Shown: piece by piece, positions 1 to 10,447 of the stretch
How the letters are laid out: every line of letters begins with the position of its first letter
Position numbering within the stretch: the first letter of the stretch is position 1
From: Carallia brachiata
Taxonomy: Eukaryota > Streptophyta > Magnoliopsida > Malpighiales > Rhizophoraceae
Length of the DNA: 64,000 bases
Direction of reading: 5' to 3'
NCBI GenBank assembly: GCA_021464245.1
Contig: JADCRB010000077.1
Coordinates: 1,075,063-1,139,062 of the forward strand
Notes under the pieces: generated by a model
Databases searched by the model: none
What the model saw: only the letters and a program-made list of their open reading frames with translations
Told to the model about the DNA's origin: nothing
Made by a program: the position numbers and the translations under genes

Positions 1-1468
1 GCGTCTTACCATCAACGTGCTCGACAGCTAATGGATGAATTTGAAAGCATCAACTTGGAGCATGTGCCTCGACGCGTTGGCTAACTTGGCCACCTCTCTT
101 ACAAAATCAGAAATCCAAGCTACAGTTGTTACCGTATGCAAAAAATGGATAATGCCACAGAAGGATGATGAAGAAACTACAGCAGCCAATGCTGTATCTG
201 TACGTCTCGCAGAGGACGAAGATTGGCGCCAATCAATCATTGACTATCTACAGCACGGGAAGATACCCGAAGATCGTCGGCATAAGACAGAAATTCAACG
301 ACGAGCTCCCCGCTTCATATATCTCAAGGATGCTCTGTATCGAAGATCTTTTGATGGAGTTTTGTTTCGCTGCCTAGGCAATGAAGAGGCAAAACAGGCT
401 CTTGCTGAAGCACATTCTGGTGTTTGTGGCGGACATTAATCAGGGCCTAAGTTGCACTTCCAGCTCAGAAGAATGAGATACTACTAGCCAAACATGGTAC
501 GTGATTCCATTGAGTTTGCTAAAACTTATCAAGCTTGTCAAATTCATGCTAATTACATACATCAACCACCGGAGCCACTGCATCCAACTGTCTCATCCTG
601 GCCTTTTGAAGCTTGGGGTCTTGACTTAGTGGGACCCTTGCCAAAGTCATCCCTGGGTCACTTGTACATCATTGCAGCAACAGACTACTTCTCAAAATGG
701 GCTGAAGCTATTCCACTTAGAGAGGTAAAGAAGGAGCATGTTGCCAATTTCATCCGGACTCAACTGATCTATCGCTATGGAGTCCCTCGATTTATCATCA
801 CTGATAATGGCAAACAGTTCTACAACAGCTTGATTGACAAGCTCTGTGAGAAATTCAAGTTCAAGCAGTACAAGTCATCCATGTACAATGCCCCAGCAAA
901 TGGCTTGGCCGAAGTATTCAACAAGACCTTATGCAACCTATTGCGGAAGGTAGTCTCTAAATCCAAAAGAGATTGGCATGACAGAATTCCGGAGGCATTA
1001 TGGGCGTATCGTACAACTTACCGAACTCCAACACAGGCGACGCCATACTCCCTTGTCTACAGTGTCGAAGCAATACTACCGTTGGAAACACAGATTCCAT
1101 CTCTGCGCATGGCTGTTCTGGAAGGACTCACACAGGAGGAAAATGCTCGCCTACGTCTGGATGAGTTAGAAGCCCTTGATGAAAGGAGACTTGAAGCACA
1201 ACAGCAACTTGAGTGCTACCAAGTCCGGCTTACCAACACGTTCAACCGCAGGTTTCGCCCTCGATCTTTTCAAGTTGGAGACCTTGTTCTTGCAGTGCGA
1301 CGGCCCATCAACATAAAGCATCGGCCTGGTGACAAGCTTACTTCCAAATGGGACGGGCCATACTTAGTTCAGGAGGCCTACACTCACAACGCTTACATGC
1401 TGTCAGACCAAGAAATCGTCCGAATTAGCCCGATCAATAGTAAATTTCTGAAACAGTATTATGTGTAA
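1..1468 (+). pseudogene. gypsy pol 3' end: RNase H C-terminus and integrase, broken
   Basis: Frame 1 from base 1 reads the RNase H tail as far as HVPR near base 75. The conserved DALANLA follows in frame 2, so a few codons are missing and the frame has shifted. Integrase follows in the same frame 2. Its zinc finger spans about 405-540: the second His is in CGGH, and the first Cys of the CxxC pair is Tyr at 527-529. The catalytic triad is intact: Asp in WGLDLVGP, Asp in ITDNGKQF and Glu in NGLAEVFN, with 35 residues between the last two (DD35E). A TAA at 437-439 stands where related proteins have Gln, and a TAG at 485-487 where they have Trp. The reading continues in frame to TAA at 1466-1468. 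The enzyme would integrate the cDNA copy of the element, but this copy cannot make it. Confidence 0.88.
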
Positions 1469-1539: not shown

Positions 1540-1862
1540 TCCCGATCTAAAAGTCCAAGCGAAAATCCAAACCTGAAAATCCAAGGCCAAACACTTGAGC
1601 CCAAACCCAGAAACTCAAGCTCAACTCAAAAGCCTGAAAACTAAGTCCAGAATCAAAATCCAAACACTCAACCCAAATCCAAAAATCCAAGTCCAAAACC
1701 CAAACACTCAACCCAAATCCAAAAATTCAAGTCTAGAAGCCCAAACACTCGACCCAAATCCAATCCAAAGCCCAAAATCCAAAAAATTCCAAATTCCAGA
1801 CACAGTCCAGAACCCAAGTTCAAAATCCAATCCAACTCCTGGCCCACATGAGTATAAACTGT
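1540..1862 (+). repeat. degenerate CCAAA-rich tandem repeat
   Basis: About 320 bases made of loosely repeated short units such as CCCAAATCCAAAA and CAAACACTCAACC, almost free of G on this strand. It lies between the integrase stop and the WUSCHEL-like ORF. An open frame through it (1595-1864) encodes only Asn/Pro/Lys/Gln-rich repeat and is not a credible protein. It separates the pol unit from a downstream TATA-like sequence. Confidence 0.6.
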
Positions 1863-1876
1863 GAACGGCCCAAAAA

Positions 1877-1884
1877 TATAAAAG
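1877..1884 (+). promoter_or_regulatory. TATA-like box before the WUSCHEL-like ORF
   Basis: TATAAAAG stands 95 bases upstream of the ATG at 1972, a normal distance for a plant core promoter. It could drive a separate transcript of the WUSCHEL-like ORF independent of the LTR. Only position and sequence support this, and a chance match in AT-rich DNA is possible. Confidence 0.35.
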
Positions 1885-1971
1885 CGATGGAGGGTTTGAG
1901 TCTGAAACCTAGCATGAGTCTTAATCGATCTTCACCACATACCAGACCTTTGCTCTTCTACCACAAGAAAT

Positions 1972-2583
1972 ATGGAACCAGTTGCAGAAGCTCAAGATAA
2001 GGGAGAAGAAAGGTCACCTCGCACAAGATGGCAACCAACCATGACACAACTGCAAATTTTGGAAGAAGTCTTCCACAACAATGGAGGTATTATGCCTAAT
2101 GCATCTCAGATTTACCAACTTTTCTCATGATTGCGCCCGCTCGGGGCAATCGAAGGAAAAAATGTGTTTTATTGGTTCCAGAATCAGAGAAGCAGGAAGA
2201 AACCAGTACTGAGAGCTGATTTTTCCAAAGAACAGTCTACCGTTCCGATGGTAGATCCCACCAGTACAACTTCGCCCTCAAATAAAGCAGGTCCGAGTTC
2301 TACCACTGCAATGGTCTCTTCAAGCTATAACAATCAAAGCAGTAGCCTGTGGGAGCATGCGTACTGGTGCTGGTGGTCTTATGGAGTCAGTCAAAGGTTC
2401 ATCCCTCCTAGGTACTTAAGTCTAGAAGGAATTTTTCTAGCAGAAAGGAGTCATTCCGGCGAAACTTTGCCTCTCTTTCCAGAATATTCCGGTAGCATCA
2501 ACTAGCCAGAAAGCGACGTCAACATCATCGGCCCACCAGACGAGGTCGAGCTTGACTTGGAGCTACGCCTTGGGCCCCGCTAG
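1972..2583 (+). pseudogene. WUSCHEL-like homeobox gene inside a gypsy element, two nonsense codons
   Basis: One frame from ATG 1972 to TAG 2581 spans 203 codons with two internal stops, TGA 2128-2130 and TAG 2503-2505. Reading through them gives the WUSCHEL (WOX) layout. An N-terminal homeodomain begins at TRWQPT and ends with IEGKNVFYWFQN then QRSRKK; the IEGKNVFYWFQN helix 3 is the signature of the WUS clade. A Ser/Thr/Pro-rich linker follows. A WUS box, TLPLFPEY, lies at 2464-2487, and an EAR-like repressor tail, LDLELRLGP, at 2551-2577. In plants WOX proteins are nuclear regulators of stem-cell niches; the WUS box and EAR motif recruit TOPLESS corepressors. No intron is visible, and at 203 residues it is shorter than Arabidopsis WUS (292). 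Position between integrase and the polypurine tract argues that it is element cargo. Both stops are single C-to-T changes from sense codons (CGA, CAG). Capture from a host WOX gene is inference. Confidence 0.85.
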
Positions 2584-3509
2584 GACGGCTGACAAAATAA
2601 GGTGCAACGACTTCTACAGCACACGGCAACGACTACTGCAGCATACGGTAACGACTTTCGTAACCCGCATCAGCCGCTGCCTCTTTTGTTTCTTATGGGG
2701 GAAAGGGACATAGAGGACCATACTCGATTCTGCGTACCTACTTTTTCACTTTTGAAAAAAAAAAATCTCTTTATATTATGTATATATATCCTGCATGTCC
2801 GAGTCATAATACTCACCCCTCAGTTCTTCTTCTTCTCAAAAGAAAATGACTAGTCTCTACACTTGTCCCAGGAAGTTCTTTGATCAAGAAGTTGGAAGCG
2901 CACGAGCTAAGAAAAGAAGGAGTAGTCTTCCTCGAGGGATCCCTAAAAGCCCTTGAAACTCAGTCTCCAACGTCATCGGTGTCATGGAGTTCCAACTACT
3001 CTCCTTAGTTCACATCTACCACAGAGAGATGAGAAGCTGCAATCATCCTAATCTTCCTTTGGATGCGGAAACGTACAGGGAAGTTCCAACTACTCTCCTT
3101 ACGTCGAAGTAGACTTGGGAATCATTACTACAGTCAGTCTCTCTGTGTGTCGGTCTTGAAGTTCCGAAGTGCTGGGCCTTCCTCATGAGAAGGTTCAAGT
3201 TCTTTGCCTACCGGATCATCGTCACCAGAGTTTTGGAACTTCAAAAAACCTTTGCCAGCCTTTGCGAGCTATGGAAGCTCGAACGCACCTGGAGCCAGAA
3301 TGTCAATTTTTATATTGGCTGGGTTGCTAACTTTCTCAAGATCGTATCGGGTTCCTATTGCGATCCAACAACAGCAGGCATAGTCAAAGATAGAAGATTT
3401 CAACATTCAATGTTCATCAAGACGTTTCAAACTTCAAGCTGGACTTCAAGACTCGGATCGGATTACGTTTGTAAAGTTCTTCCTTACCAACTCTTGAAGT
3501 GGGGGTATT
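2584..3509 (+). other. gypsy 3' untranslated region with polypurine tract
   Basis: No convincing coding frame. The stretch holds a 20-base exact direct repeat (2988-3007 and 3082-3101, containing TTCCAACTACTC) and repeated TTCAAGTTC-like motifs near 3195-3245 and 3425-3450. It ends in CTTGAAGTGGGGGTATT (about 3493-3509), the likely plus-strand primer immediately before the LTR. Confidence 0.6.
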
Positions 3510-4326
3510 TGTAAACAAAAAAAAAAAAAGAAGCTGCCACTGTGGTCGGCATTGCCGACCACAGTAAGTCAATGGCCACCAACGATTAAGTTGGTGGCCG
3601 AAATGGGCAAGGAAATTCTTCCTTTCCCATGTGATGTTCACATGGGAAAAGAACCCTATAAATAGGCCCCTGTCCCTCAGTTGAAGATAGATTCAGCAAA
3701 TCTGTAAACAGAAAAATCCAGAGAATTTGAGAGAAAAAGAAAATTTTGAAAATCTCTCAAGAAAATTTCTCCTTTTCCTACGTGCTTTTACTCTGCAGTA
3801 TACTCTCCTAACTCCTTTTTGAGAGATATTTCAGGGGTAAATCCCAAAAAATTTGCTGTTCCCATTTCTAAAATTATTTTTTAGATTTATATTCTCCGAT
3901 CGCCCTAAATCTGAATTTATAAGAATATAGATTTGAAAATATCAAAATATTACAAATCTGACTGGGATTAAGCCTCATACGGCCCTCAGCAAAATCCAGA
4001 CAGCTCATCCGAGAATAAGTCCCTTATAACCTCGGTGAAATTAAACCAGATCGGTTTAGATCAAGTCTCTGCGGTTCTTAACCGTAGTCTAAATGTCCAA
4101 ATCAGATCCGGTTTCAGTCTACCCAGTTCAAGAAAAAACTGTGGAAATTATTTCAGTCAATATGAAGCTCATGCAGCCCTTGACAGAGTCAAAAAGGAAC
4201 ACTAATCGGAGGATCTACGGAAATCGATCCCACGTAAATTTCTTTTTATTTCACAATTTTTTATTATAATTTATTTTTATATTTTTGAGTCTAATTGTTT
4301 TAGGCTCGAAATTTACTCATTACACA
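3510..4326 (+). repeat. 3' LTR of the gypsy element
   Basis: Starts TGTAAAC right after the G-rich polypurine stretch and probably ends in ...TTACACA near 4326, about 0.82 kb. The right edge is inferred, because the next bases already match the LTR of the neighbouring copia element. A TATA box (TATAAATA, 3657-3664) followed by GGCCCCTGTCCCTCAG marks the start of R. Three perfect inverted repeats lie in U3 within about 120 bases upstream of it. Confidence 0.7.
3540..3649 (+). promoter_or_regulatory. three consecutive perfect inverted repeats in the LTR U3
   Basis: IR1 3540-3564 has 12-bp arms (CTGTGGTCGGCA) and a one-base centre. IR2 3574-3599 has 10-bp arms (GGCCACCAAC) and a six-base loop. 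IR3 3623-3649 has 12-bp arms (TTTCCCATGTGA) and a three-base loop. All arms are exact. The set ends 8 bases before the TATA box at 3657. They could be dimeric factor sites or RNA hairpins; the sequence does not decide. Confidence 0.6.
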
Positions 4327-4833
4327 AGGCTGTGTGCCTTACCTAACTAGTTTGAAGCGATTTTGTGATGGCGCAACTTTAATATACTCGTGTCTTAAGA
4401 AAATTTTCGAAAAAAGGAAAAGTTGCACCTTGTGACCTTTAAACACATGACCTTTCATTTGAAACGAATAGTCACCAACACTTCTATAAATATAGGAGTT
4501 GTGAACTGAGCAGAAAATACAAAAACAATCTTCTTTCTTCTTTCTTTGGCGGCTTCAATCTTTACAAAAAGGGTCTATTATCTAAGATTTTGCTGTAGAA
4601 AATCTATAGATATTGAAAGTAATTCTGTAAAACTATAAAAGTTATTCTCAAGGGTTTGACTTCTGTAATACAAACTGCAATCAAGTGGGTTTTATTTTAT
4701 CCTGTGAGGAAATTCGCTATGATCTACTTGCACTGTATTGAGGACAAATTTTACCTTAAGGAGAGTAGCATCATTACACGACTTGAAACAATTCTACATT
4801 CAAAGACAGTCTTACAACGTTTGGTGTTCAACA
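4327..4833 (+). repeat. 5' LTR of copia element
   Basis: Aligns with 9514-10447 after removal of a 376-bp insertion from the latter. Shared anchors are ACAAGGCTGTG, GCGCAACTTTAATATA, CTATAAATATA (TATA box at about 4486-4496) and the terminal TACAA...TGGTG...CAACA. The left edge is uncertain because it meets the gypsy LTR. Confidence 0.7.
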
Positions 4834-4857
4834 ATCTTAAGGCAAAAATAATTACTA

Positions 4858-7800
4858 TGGCTGGGACTTTGACGGAATTTGCTTCAAACTTTGGGAAACT
4901 TGAAAGGTTTGATGGAGGAAACTTCCTAAGATGACAAAAATGTGTTCATTTCTTGTTGATGATTCTACAAGTGGCTTTTGTTCTAAATACTACAAAACTA
5001 GAATAGTCAAAAAATAAGACCTTGTTGATGCAAGGAAAAGGCAAACATAGGAAACAAATGATGAAATTTGCAGGGGACATATTCTGAATGCCATGAGCAA
5101 TTCACTTTTTGATGTCTACCACAACATCTCTACAGGAAAGGCACTCTGGGAAAAATTGGAGACAAAGTGCATGCAAGAGGATGCAACAAGTAAGAAATTT
5201 TTAGTCTCAAAATTTAATAATTTCAAGATGACTAATGCTAGGTAAGTTGTGGAACAATTTGTTGAAATTGAAAGGATTTTAAATCACTTCTTACAACACA
5301 ATATGTCAATATATAAAATTATTGTTGTGAGTTCCATCATTAATAAGTTGCCTCCTTTATGGAAAGATTTGAAGAGAAGTTTGAAACACAAAATAGAAGA
5401 TATATCTCTTGAAAGTCTTGCTAATCATCTTCACGTTGAAGAAGAGTTTTGCATGCAAGAATAAAACAAAGAACATGGCTCTAAAGTGCATGTGGTAGAG
5501 GAAGGACAATCTATTAAGTCCACAAAGAAGAGAAAGAATCAATCAAATGATAATACAAAGAAGGACAAAAGGCAGAAAAAGGGCAAATTCATTTTTGTCA
5601 AAAGGAAGGACACTAAAAATAAAAGTGTCATTTGCTCAAAAAGAAAAAGCAGGCATCCTCAGGAGCAGCGAATGGAAAAATGGTTGCAATGAACACAAGG
5701 ATCAATATAGTTGAGGATGACATTATTTAGTGGATTGATTCTGGTGCTACTCAACATATTTGCAAGAATAAAAATCTGTTTAGATATGTGAAACAAGTAA
5801 ATGATGATACTGTTGCATATATGAGAAATTCTACTGTAGTTCTAGGTATGGGAATTGAGGAAGTATAATTGCAATTCACTTCTAGAAGAGTTATCAGTCT
5901 TACTAATGTATTTTATATTCCAGAAGCTAGGAAAAATCTGGTTTCGGGTAGTCTTTTGAACAAATATGGGTTCAAACTTGTATTTGAGGACAATAACTTT
6001 CTCCTCTCTAAAGGAGGTGTGTTTGTGGAAAAAGGTTATCTATGTGATAGCATGTTTAAACTCAATATTGTTACTAATATTAATATGAAAGTTTCTGCTT
6101 ATACTATTGAGCATTCTTCTCTATGGCATAATAGGCTAGGATATGTAAACTTTAGAAATTTTATGACATGGTTAATATGGACCTATTACCATATCTTGGA
6201 AAATCTGAGAATAAATGTACTATTTGCAGTTGACAAAAATAACCAATAACACATTTTCAAGAATTGAAAGATCCTCAAATATTTTAGAATTAATACATAG
6301 TGATGTATGTGATTTACATAATACACCAACACACTAGGAGGAAAGAAATATTTTGTGACATTTATTAACGATTATTCAAGATTCTGCCATGTTTATTTGC
6401 TATATGCTAAAGATGAAGTTCTTGAAAGATTTAAAGTTTATAAAACTGAAGTTGAATTGTAATGTGCAGTTTTTATTAAATGCTTACGATCTGATAGAGA
6501 AAGAGAATACTATGATACTGTATTTTTTTTGTTCAAGGGAATCATATATCAAACAACTACTCCTTACACACCACAACAGAATGGTGTTGTTGAGCATAGA
6601 AATCGATCATTGATGGAAATGGTTAATGCCAAGCTGTCGAATTTCGACTTAAACTAGAGATTTTGGGGTAAGGCATTACTCACAGCATGCCACATTTTGA
6701 ATAGAGTTTCATCCAAATGGAACAAAATGACCCCAAATGGGTTCTGGAAGAAAAGAAAACCAAATCTTAGTTATCTAAAAGTTTAGGACTGTAGACCAAT
6801 TATTAGAGTTTCTGAACGCAAAAGGAAAAACCTGGATGAAAGGGGAATTAAGTATATCTTCTTGGGATGTGCTCAAAATAGCAAAGCCTATCGATTCACG
6901 GTCATAGAGCTTAATACCTTTATATCTGTTAACACAATAATTAAATCGAAGGATGCTATTTTTGATGAAAATAGGTTTACCTTAGTTTCTAAAAATCAAG
7001 AACACAAAGAAGTTACTTATGAGGAAAATAACGTGATGGCAACTACAAATAAAAATGATGAAGTCACTGAACTTTGAAAGAGCAAAAGAGAAAGGAAAGC
7101 AAAGACTTTCGGTTCTGATTTCTTTATGGTTCTAATTGAAGGAATAAGAGAATTAATGAGTAATCGAATCCCATATTGCTTCAATACTGAAGACAATCCC
7201 AAAACATTTGATGAAGCGATGAAATCGCAAGATGCTGTGCTTTGGAAGGAAGCAATAAACGATGAAATGGACTCAATTATGGGTAATAAAACTTTGAAAT
7301 GAGTAGATCTCCCACTTGGCTCAAAGCTAATGGGATGTAAATAGATTTTCAAAAAGAAAATGAAAGTTAATGGAACCATTGACAAGTTTAAAGACAGACT
7401 GGTTGCAAAAGGTTTTACACAAAAGCAAGGAATCGATTATTTCAATACATATGCACCAGTGGCCAGAATTGCCACAATCACGGTCCTCATTGCTCTTGCT
7501 TCAATTCATAATCTGTTAATTCACCAAATAGATATAAAAACAACATTCTTAAATGGTGAATTGGAAAAAGATGTGTATATGGAGCCACCTGCAGTGTTTG
7601 TTGTATCTGGTCAAGAGGAAAAGGTGCGTAAAATTATTAAGTCTTTGTATAGACTAAAACATACACCTAAACAATGGCACAAAAACTTTGATCAAGTGGT
7701 ACTTGCTAGTGGGTTCAAGATTAATGAATCAGAAAAATGTGTCTATAGTCAGTTTAAAGGAGGAAAAACTATCATTATTTATTTATATATGGATGACATG

Positions 7801-8735
7801 TTAATTTTTGGGAGTGACTTAGAACAAGTAGAACTTATCAAAAGGTTTTTTTCAAGTAATTTTCATATGAAAGACATTGGTGAGGCAGATGTCATCCTTG
7901 GAATTAGAATCTTACAAGATCAAAAGAGCATAATGCTTACTCAATTGCATTATATTGAGAAAGTTTTTAATAAATTCAATTGTTTAGATCGTATTCCTGC
8001 CTCTACCCCATTTGATCCCAACATAAATTTTACTACAAATGTTGGAAGTCTAGTACCAAACTGGAATATGCCAAGGTAATTAGATATCTAGTGTACACAA
8101 TGGCATGTATAAGGCCAGACATAGCCTATGTAGTTGGCAAGATGAGTAGGTACACTAGTAATCTGAGTAACATGCATTGGCATAGAATTAATAAAATTCT
8201 AAGGTAAAGAAAACAAAGAATTATGACATAAGTTATACAGGTTACCTTTCTGTACACTCAGATGCTAGTTGGATCATAAATAAAGGAGGATCATACCTCT
8301 ACTAATGGGTGGATATTCATGCATAGCGGGGGTACAATTTCTTGGGGTTCCAAGAAACAGACTTGTATAGCATATTCCATTATGATTATAGAATTTATAG
8401 TACTAGTTTCAACGAGTAAAGAAACAGAATAGTTAAGAAATTTACTTTACGATATTCCTTTGTGGTAAAAGCCAATAGCATTAATCTATATGTACTGTGA
8501 CAGTGCTGTGACTCTAGCAAGAGTGTATAGTCAAGTGTATGACAGTAAGTCCAGACACATTGGCCTTAAACATAGTTATGTGAGAAACTTGATCACAAAT
8601 AGAGTAATCACAATTGATTTTGTGAGATCAAGTGAAAACATGACTGATCCTTTAACAAAAAGATTAACAAGAGACTTGGTGAATAAAACATCAAAGAAGA
8701 TGGGTCTCAAGCCCACTTTTATTGATCACTCATAA
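4858..8735 (+). pseudogene. copia gag-pol polyprotein remnant
   Basis: Gag starts MAGTLTEFASNFGKLERFDGGN at 4858 and continues in pieces to about 5463. A degraded Lys-rich stretch follows without a clear CCHC knuckle. The protease core WIDSGATQHIC lies near 5732-5764 and the GAG-pre-integrase HSSLWHNRLGYVNF near 6112-6156. Integrase pieces cover 6280-6660, including HSDV, FINDYSRF and YTPQQNGVVEHRN. RT is the best-preserved part (7360-8079): LVAKGFTQKQGIDY, QIDIKTTFLNG and the catalytic YMDD near 7788-7799. RNase H ends around 8490-8735 with DSKSRHIGLKH and MTDPLTKRL. More than ten stops and several frameshifts show long decay. In life it would package and copy the element RNA; this copy is inactive. 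Confidence 0.85.
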
Positions 8736-9476
8736 TGGAACCTCAAATCAACGTTTGATATAACATTAAGTCTTGAGCTTTTAATGAGTCAAAGTACATC
8801 ATCAATGTGATTGAAGCACTATATTCAGTTTTTCATCCCAAGATTACATAGTGCTTGGTTTTCACAGTTCAATTGAGAGGTTGAGTTTTTACAATTTTTA
8901 ATGGACTTTGTAAAGTTGCTTTAGCACGAGGGCACTAAGTCTGCCTATATAAATGTACAATGCGGGTCATTCCAACAAGCTCAAGGGTTTGGCTTTAAAA
9001 TATCCATGAAAAGGATATGGACACATGACTGTTAAAATGTCATGTTAAATTGAAGAGATATTTATAATTGTAAGGTCAATTGTGTAAAGTAATTCTACAA
9101 CTTACTAATAAGAATAGTTGGTTTCAAGGTATAGTCTACCATATTATTCAGGTTTGTTATAATGTACATTTTACTATGTAGTGGTTTTAATCTTGAGACA
9201 CCACTGTTTATACAATTGACAATCAAAATTATTAAAGATCCATTACATTTTCACATTTTGAAAATGATAGAGGATTGTCAAAAAAATTTTCAAAATAAAA
9301 AATATGGAAAATCCAAATGTTGTGTATGGTGGGTTTTGAACCCAAGTGGCATAACTTTTCAAGAAGGGTTGTGACTAATTGGGCCAAATTACTCGTTAAG
9401 GTAGTTATGAGAAGTTTATTATATAACTGCTTCTAGAAGTCTCTTTCTGAAAAATAAAAGAAAAGGGTGGAAAGGA

Positions 9477-10447
9477 TGCATCTGTTCATATTCGAACTCA
9501 GGTGGCGCGCGGGACAAGGCTGTGCCTTAGCCAATTGGACTAAAGCACTTTCATGTTATTTGATAGCGCAACTTTAATATAGTCGTATCTTAAGATAAGT
9601 CCAAAAAAAGGGAAAAGTTGCGCCTCATGACCTTTAAACACATGACCTTGCATTTGAAAAAACAAGATCATTACCAATAGACGAAGGGCAACGCTTAACG
9701 AATAGTCACCAACACTTTTATAAATATAAGAGTTGCAAACTAGGCAGAAGATACAAAAATAATCTTTTTTCTTTCTTTTTTGGTCACTTCAATCTCTACA
9801 AAAAGGATCTATTATCTAAGATTTTTTTGCAGAAAAATCTATAGATATTGAAAGTAATTCTGCAACACTATAAAAGATATTCTCGAGGACTTGACTTCAG
9901 TAGTGCAAATTACAATCAAGTGGGCTTCATTTTATCCTATGAGGGAATTCGCTGTAACTTGCTTGCACTGTATTGAGGACGAATTTGACCTTATGGTTTG
10001 TTTGGATTGTGATATTTCTGTGAGAAAGAAAATAGTGAGAAAAGAAATGTTAGAAAATAGTGAGAAAGTGAAATTTTACATTTGAATCGTATAAACAATT
10101 GTAAGAAAAAATGTATTAACGAAGTTACAAAAGTATCCTTATAAATTAATTAATAGTAAGTTTAAATTATGGAGATAAAATTGTGGTTATTATGGTCATT
10201 ATACTCTCATTTGTTTTTTTTCTTTTCTTTCAACTGGTTTTAAATGTCTAACAAGTGACAACCTTTTGTTTTTCACATCCATTTCTCATGGTTTCCCAAA
10301 CGTTAGAATTTGCTTTGATCTTTGTGTTTTCATTCATTTTCTTTTCTCATGGAAAAAACAAACAGAAGATTAGAGAGAATGACATTATTACACGAGTTAA
10401 AGTAATTCTATATTTATAGACAGTCCTACAATCTCTGGTGCCCAACA
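9477..10447 (+). repeat. 3' LTR of copia element, interrupted by a MITE
   Basis: Homologous to 4327-4833 from ACAAGGCTGTG (9514) to CCCAACA (10447), with 376 bp inserted at 9994-10369. The bases 9477-9513 are probably also LTR, since they follow a purine-rich tract, but have no left-hand counterpart. Confidence 0.68.
9994..10369. mobile_element. Tourist-like (PIF/Harbinger-type) MITE in the copia LTR
   Basis: Interrupts the copia 3' LTR exactly where the 5' LTR is continuous (near 4750). It is flanked by TTA on both sides (9991-9993 and 10370-10372), the 3-bp duplication typical of PIF/Harbinger. The ends are imperfect inverted repeats: TGGTTTGTTTGG...GAGAAAAGAAATG on the left, and the reverse complement of CATTTTCTTTTCTC...AAACAAACAG on the right. 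It has no coding capacity. Confidence 0.6.

Follow-up and report, generated by a model that had tools for sequence, protein, structure and literature searches.

A WUSCHEL-like accessory gene fixed in a Tat-type Ty3/gypsy retrotransposon family of Carallia brachiata

Angiosperm Tat elements, a group of Ty3/gypsy retrotransposons, are described with the domain order RT-RH-aRH-INT (Neumann et al., PMC6317226), and for Retand elements a DNA-binding protein encoded in antisense has been proposed to act on the element itself or on its RNA/DNA complexes (PMC11963269). A screen of 121 angiosperm genomes reported 15 extra domains in elements, among them LONELY GUY (PMC9289625), a domain that activates cytokinin and is related to the meristem. 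Here we describe a gene with the motif order of WUSCHEL (WUS), the gene by which plant stem cells are maintained, in a Ty3/gypsy family of Carallia brachiata, the state of its copies across the genome, the selection on it and the roles that may be proposed for it.

The locus lies in a 64,000-nt stretch of the assembly GCA_021464245.1 (JADCRB010000077.1), called the window below; coordinates given without a copy or contig label refer to it, and the features of the gypsy element from pol to 3′ LTR lie on the + strand. The 3′ part of a retrotransposon pol (1..1468; reading frames and rve profile match) includes an open integrase frame of 324 codons (494-1465, frame to 1468; Pfam rve, 42 bits), severed in the list of reading frames from the preceding frame at 35-439. 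Upstream of the window pol extends into the adjoining sequence (L082), with 92% identity over 1794 bp to a complete copy (L026); no 5′ LTR was found in the 8 kb searched there, where pol is seen with an unrelated stretch inside it. Integrase is followed by a spacer with degenerate 40-nt repeats (1570..1763; repeat family D3), a promoter-like block defined by identity among 23 copies (1852..1911), the WUS-like accessory gene (1972..2583; 203 codons plus stop), a polypurine tract (GAAGTGGGGG, 3496..3505; read directly, at an equal position in complete copies) and the 3′ LTR of the same element (3510..4324), which was read directly from its TGTAAAC start to its TTACA end and aligns at 89-91% to the LTRs of L026, L059 and L058.

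The gene contains a homeodomain at codons 18-79 (2023..2208; Pfam, structure match and alignment) and, as read in the translation, a WUS box TLPLFPEY at codons 165-172 (2464..2487) and a C-terminal EAR-type tail LDLELRLGP at codons 194-202 (2551..2577). A preliminary description of this DNA had named the homeodomain with its IEGKNVFYWFQN helix and both short motifs, and had placed them between integrase and a polypurine tract with LTR; all of these features are present in that arrangement. It had also spoken of one frame, and this part did not hold, because the window copy is broken by an in-frame TGA at codon 53 (2128-2130) and a TAG at codon 178 (2503-2505), so that the full protein could not be made from it; comparison of frames among copies gave no frameshift in this copy. 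Since a stop divides the homeodomain, it is matched as two halves (PF00046, 19.4 and 20.3 bits), each just below the cut-off of 22.9 bits.

Two further observations concern the surroundings of the gene. A second frame of ~144 codons lies between gene and 3′ LTR (L022 6886-7320; L024, oriented, 6879 onwards; window 3185-3514); some of the short elements have it open and others have it broken or shortened. It has no Pfam match and is possibly just a stop-poor stretch. Directly after the gypsy LTR stands a Ty1/copia-type element (4361-9996; RVT_2, 197.7 bits, on the frame 7360-8076), whose repeated ends (~4361-4761 and ~9556-9996) are 85-86% identical over ungapped blocks, which makes it probably old.

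A complete copy (L059 with L026) has LTRs 96.6% identical over 817 bp, the target site duplication (TSD) GGGGG and an intact 203-codon gene. Frames of L026 matched RVT_1, RT_RNaseH and RVT_3 (archaeal-type RNase H) by Pfam, with integrase behind them by blastn, and rve was also matched by frames of L058 and of the window. The archaeal-type RNase H lies between RNase H and integrase, which is the Ogre/Retand order of Tat elements, and paired LTRs with a TSD enclose the gene, as in an LTR retrotransposon. Both LTRs were within the fetched stretch in 11 of 20 copies, a twelfth pair being that of L026 with L059, and all five copies inspected for them (L020, L022, L024, L028 and L026/L059) had 5-bp target duplications. 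The host element is a Tat-type Ty3/gypsy retrotransposon with hundreds of copies, in which the gene stands in sense between integrase and 3′ LTR; we regard this anatomy of the gene-bearing family as nearly certain.

To obtain copies chosen independently of the gene, we searched the genome (a 337.5-Mb assembly of 164 contigs) with an integrase anchor (40 scored of 1000 candidates) and examined the first 20 matches outside the window. In all 20, integrase is followed by the gene or at least by its homeodomain part: 16 were fetched downstream and every one carried a nearly full-length gene (86-95% identity), and the other four were already among the gene matches, two of them by the homeodomain part only. 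A 38-nt block upstream of the gene (the core at 1863-1900, with letters as in the fetched copies) occurs at 753 places (362 + 391) at up to 3 mismatches, with 0 for the control, and an integrase 38-mer at 641 places (304 + 337; control 0). Searches with the gene itself gave at least 40 scored DNA matches to the window frame (93-100% identity, the window included) of 1217 candidates, and 151 protein matches, with 150 scored of 2295 candidates. Among these 150, 96 are free of stops and 54 have at least one, a share skewed to intact frames because the matches are ranked by score; 23 have the identical score of 386.7 bits. Two of these 23, L029 and L030, come from different contigs and share 621 identical bp, in keeping with a recent burst. 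The WUS-like gene is a fixed accessory gene of one Ty3/gypsy family, and not a one-off capture. Both possibilities had been raised in the preliminary description, and its second, a family of elements that has kept such a gene, is the right one: the order integrase, gene, polypurine tract and LTR of one gypsy family recurs, the 38-nt block stands at its 753 places rather than here alone, and the gene follows in 20/20 integrase matches.

Many of the copies are broken. For 20 copies selected by the gene and fetched as 10-kb stretches, integrase (at least 708 bp matched) lies ~0.5 kb before the gene in nine, a 188-bp integrase remnant was found in one, and ten had no integrase within 6 kb upstream. 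An unbroken gene frame was found in six of these 20 copies and in 1/16 of the integrase-selected copies. Many of the breaks are scattered single-base indels (L083-L098; integrase copies in L009-L028), which may in part be assembly errors rather than real decay; one such indel, at a run of T, is common to seven copies. Across nine gene-bearing copies 34 breaks were counted in 8.5 kb of integrase and 10 in 5.5 kb of the gene, a comparison that favours the gene since these copies were chosen by it. Some element copies lie in longer open frames of up to 366 codons (e.g. C72:609806-610420), and fusions of the WUS-like gene with neighbouring sequence may exist. In L058 (C132:1208769-1217768) two units, each with the gene, stand in tandem with an LTR between them and share 96% identity along 3.1 kb, an arrangement that unequal recombination between element copies might have left.

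Five short elements (L020, L022, L024, L025 and L028) have no integrase match. Nor was any of them hit by the complete copy when this was split into four successive pieces running from the gag side across reverse transcriptase, RNase H and integrase. Eight further frames of L020, L022, L024 and L028 hit no gag or pol family in Pfam, and a 249-residue frame of L025 gave a weak gag match (17.1 bits, cut-off 24.1). The internal regions of L020, L022, L024 and L028 measure 2.9-3.1 kb, and the WUS-like frame is the longest in each. This frame is intact in L022 and L028, and is interrupted by one frameshift in L020, one stop in L024 and one of each in L025. Their LTRs form a second class, which aligns to that of the integrase-bearing copies only in pieces of at most 211 bp (~72-85%); L018 and L021 have the integrase-bearing LTR type, yet lack integrase. 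The LTR pairs of the five elements are 98.2-99.0% identical. A commonly used plant rate is 1.3e-8 per site per year, at which these pairs are less than 1 million years old. The gene is thus retained also in short elements without any match to pol, and since its product would work in trans, such elements would have no strict need to carry it.

Descent from WUS was assessed on homeodomain, motifs and gene structure. An intact copy matches PF00046 at 47.0 bits (E 2.2e-12) and aligns without gaps to the solved Arabidopsis WUS homeodomain (6ry3; E 3.1e-18). The extra loop residue that makes a 61-residue homeodomain segment is present in 21/21 WUS-type proteins (19 from the database and two of the host) and in all seven element copies compared, whereas the seven other host WOX homeodomains have 60 residues and lack it. 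Between the element gene and either host WUS, 31 of 61 homeodomain residues are identical. The WUS box, defined as T-L-x-L-F-P (PMC9781121), is kept at T165 in 53, L166 in 62, L168 in 61, F169 in 60 and P170 in 55 of 62 copies, and the EAR leucines 194, 196, 198 and 200 in 60, 62, 61 and 61; codon 199, between the fixed leucines, varies (R in 35 and H in 22 of the 62). WUS box and EAR tail follow the homeodomain in the order of WUS, as claimed at the outset. The element gene has no intron (201-209 codons in open fetched copies), which fits capture from an mRNA. The host's own WUS genes lie elsewhere, on C90 (L049; WUS A, 308 aa, spliced from three exons) and on C65 (L050; coding matches also split). 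By these features of its sequence, homeodomain, WUS box and EAR tail, the intronless element gene is taken as derived from WUSCHEL.

A tree of the element copies, 51 WUS-type proteins from the database and both host WUS, proposed earlier in the form of a tree with host WOX proteins, gave a solid element clade (100/100). Its place within WUS is obscured by a long branch, in this tree (length 5.17 for the full protein) as in one of the homeodomain alone (3.13). The branch is so long that the neighbourhood to Juglans is meaningless and the trees are silent on which WUS was the source; a clade of the element gene with WUS was not rejected (p-AU 0.247). The host WUS genes group with Erythroxylum (98/89), which points to a probable place of the plant in Malpighiales near Erythroxylaceae. 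They are two diverged sisters (99/93), and Erythroxylum likewise has two. In the protein database the best 120 of 419 and the best 120 of 279 matches all contain PF00046 at up to 53% identity; many are named WUSCHEL, many hypothetical protein, one is named an oxygenase and a few are unnamed. None of these best matches is named as an element protein, a negative of little weight because annotation pipelines mask repeats and only the best matches were covered. Among IMG/VR viral contigs 48 stretches matched the search pattern, none of them encoding a relative.

Selection was assessed on an alignment of 62 copies, consisting of the window, 20 copies chosen by similarity to the window frame, 40 from the stop-free protein matches (L058 being the source of one) and the other gene copy of L058; this choice is biased against stops and not against nonsynonymous changes. 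Private changes (in one copy, mostly post-insertion) were compared with shared changes (in at least 3 copies, from lineages still multiplying). Nonsynonymous to synonymous counts (N:S) in the homeodomain were 41:11 for private and 5:12 for shared changes (p=0.0006), and those of the whole gene 138:44 and 64:39 (p=0.02), whereas outside the homeodomain and the two motifs there was no difference (85:29 and 51:21, p=0.61); the WUS box alone (p=1) and the EAR tail alone (p=0.13) gave no significant result, being too short for the test. The neutral N:S expectation from the private mutation spectrum is 2.7 (42 copies), and private changes look neutral. Among eight elements of the second LTR class the homeodomain pN/pS was 0.03, among ten copies with integrase it was 0.40, and in comparisons across the two groups 0.12 (pS 0.138); the remainder of the gene gave 0.30, 0.59 and 0.41. 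Pairs are not independent, since the copies share descent and have perhaps recombined. A first estimate on 25 frames (pooled pN/pS 0.49 overall, 0.22 in the homeodomain, 0.61 in the linker and 0.62 in the tail; L018, with compensating frameshifts, among them) has been superseded by the private/shared test. A comparison of substitution ratios among copies had been suggested when the locus was first described. By the contrast of 41:11 with 5:12 and the low pN/pS within the second LTR class and between classes, although the 0.40 among integrase-bearing copies speaks against it, the homeodomain protein sequence was very probably held by purifying selection at a time when elements still multiplied.

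For Arabidopsis WUS, residues R38, Q89, N90 and R94 are reported to read DNA bases (Sloan et al., PMC7203112). Of the 62 copies, 62, 61, 62 and 59 keep the equivalents of these residues; for K82, N83 and Y86, the backbone cluster, the counts are 62, 61 and 62. At the position of S36 the element has R in 57, H in 3 and P in 2 copies; in the S36R variant of WUS, binding to a TAAT probe is reported to shift to the form of a typical homeodomain with TGAA binding undisturbed (PMC7203112), and by this analogy the range of sites bound by the element protein may be wider than that of WUS.

The promoter-like block contains GGCCCA (1867-1872) and TATAAAAG (1877-1884), the TATA-containing part standing ~88 bp before the ATG. 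Read on the other strand, GGCCCA is TGGGCC, a motif in promoters of dividing cells. Across 23 copies of both LTR classes mean pairwise identity is 98.6% at 1852-1881 and 95.0% at 1882-1911, the former being the best-conserved non-coding 30-bp window over 1672-3051; within the gene, identity per 30 bp lies between 91% and nearly 100%, and within the spacer (1672-1821) it is 61-71%. Host WUS promoters were considered as a source of the block, and ~1.5 kb upstream of either gene showed no convincing similarity (best match 16 nt, E 0.011). WUS core sites were not enriched in the one promoter block counted. Judged by its conservation and position, the TATA-containing block would probably serve as the gene's own promoter.

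The best overall explanation, to which we assign a probability of roughly 0.6, is a selected, self-promoted, WUS-derived repressor carried by the Tat-type family. Transcription would start from the gene's own TATA-containing block ~88 bp before the ATG, and the product would be a small nuclear repressor on WUS-type TGAA sites that recruits TOPLESS-type co-repressors. In meristem or ovule cells, from which a new insertion would be heritable, it would influence the host programme in trans, and either favour a stem-cell-like state or weaken silencing or a WUS-linked antiviral defence. Such action in trans on the meristem or ovule programme is a tentative proposal, at somewhat less than even odds. 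More tentative by a shade is the wider notion that gypsy-like elements, including short ones with a self-promoted WUS mimic as their only recognised protein gene, live by manipulating stem-cell identity or defence; the element would then encode a master regulator of development that acts on the cells from which the germline forms.

Other readings were weighed against this one. The protein might instead be a self-regulator that targets the element or its RNA/DNA complexes, WUS ancestry being just the source of a DNA-binding repressor; other Tat accessory proteins are probably DNA-binding and maybe regulatory (PMC11963269), and the homeodomain is the constrained part of the gene, but TGAA/TTCA counts in three LTRs match shuffled expectation (12 against 13.1, 14 against 13.5 and 13 against 13.1, no enrichment), and the LTRs of the two classes align over at most 211 bp while the homeodomain is nearly unchanged, so that we consider this unlikely. 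Less likely again is a decoy that competes with host WUS for sites or co-repressors and blunts a WUS-dependent antiviral defence in stem cells. WUS has been reported to trigger antiviral immunity in stem cells (Wu et al. 2020, cited in PMC9781121), and base-contact residues and both short motifs are kept; the kept WUS box and EAR leucines, however, give the protein the look of a competent repressor and not of a dominant negative.

The conserved stretch could also be kept, not for its protein, but for a role in cis (RNA packaging, internal promoter or enhancer), and this would agree with the block at 1852-1881, which at 98.6% equals the best gene windows, and with retention of the stretch in the short elements; it is an improbable reading, since it predicts neither the shift from 41:11 to 5:12 in the homeodomain nor the variation of codon 199 between fixed EAR leucines. 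We hold it a little less probable still that a captured host fragment is carried as a neutral passenger, with recent amplification as the cause of its apparent conservation: broken copies are many and the private/shared test finds no constraint outside the homeodomain, but the homeodomain N:S contrast (p=0.0006), its pN/pS of 0.12 between LTR classes at a pS of 0.138 and the presence of the gene on all 16 fetched integrase-selected copies speak against it. An ordinary host WOX gene between two unrelated insertions has a negligible probability, and as a candidate it was rejected, because the gene recurs at hundreds of places with the same neighbours, with LTR pairs and TSDs in the examined copies, and the two WUS genes of the host, which have introns, are at other loci. 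Flanks contributed by different elements, the case in which the preliminary description would have failed, were likewise not seen in the copies examined, the order being recurrent and the LTRs of complete copies matched, with TSDs in the five inspected.

Kept even by short elements, the selected, WUS-derived DNA-binding protein of the preferred reading would make this family a tangible example of a stem-cell regulator borne by a plant transposon, and it raises the possibility of a genomic parasite that acts on the stem-cell programme of its host. Plants set aside no early germline, so that an insertion in shoot stem cells or their L2 descendants would be heritable. In these cells extra silencing factors are reported to be expressed and transient transposon activity to occur (PMC7560203). 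Whether plant transposons act on the host meristem programme becomes a testable question, and the LONELY GUY domain reported for Citrus and Populus gypsy elements hints that genes of the meristem may be taken up repeatedly. On the practical side, WOX gene counts from C. brachiata or related genomes may be inflated by element copies.

Among described systems the family resembles Retand/Ogre (Tat) elements in its RT-RH-aRH-INT order, its accessory gene between integrase and 3′ LTR, its non-autonomous relatives and its spacer repeats (PMC6317226, PMC11963269). Retand accessory frames are described as antisense, with TRP28 in 97% of clusters, whereas the Carallia gene is in sense and, by its sequence, WUS-derived; the 2019 survey counted extra frames of at least 250 codons only, so that a gene of 203 codons would have been missed. 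In maize Grande, too, the 3′ internal region is described as holding an accessory gene that has a promoter of its own and a nuclear product, but this gene is antisense, and the description consulted mentions no relation to WUS. Ty3/gypsy elements of Phalaenopsis with an AlkB RNA demethylase offer a parallel, in that one plant group has a gypsy lineage with a fixed functional domain of host type (PMC9289625); AlkB is an RNA-modifying enzyme, and the Carallia gene is of a developmental transcription factor type. Gypsy elements with YgdH (LONELY GUY) in Citrus and, unfiltered, in Populus, and with B3 in Aegilops, likewise carry developmental or DNA-binding domains, which are not homeodomain genes (PMC9289625), and the terms homeo and WUS occur 0 times in the main text of that paper. 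Our search of the openly licensed PMC literature, supplements aside, turned up no LTR retrotransposon described with a homeobox or WUS gene. With WUSCHEL itself the gene shares the homeodomain contacts and the order homeodomain, WUS box and EAR (PMC7203112; 6ry3), and it differs from host WUS A, with its 308 aa and three exons, in being intronless, 201-209 codons long and R or H at the S36 position. Accessory genes of Tat elements and host domains taken up by elements form a known class, within which a WUS-derived transcription factor, kept by the short elements as well, would be a new form.
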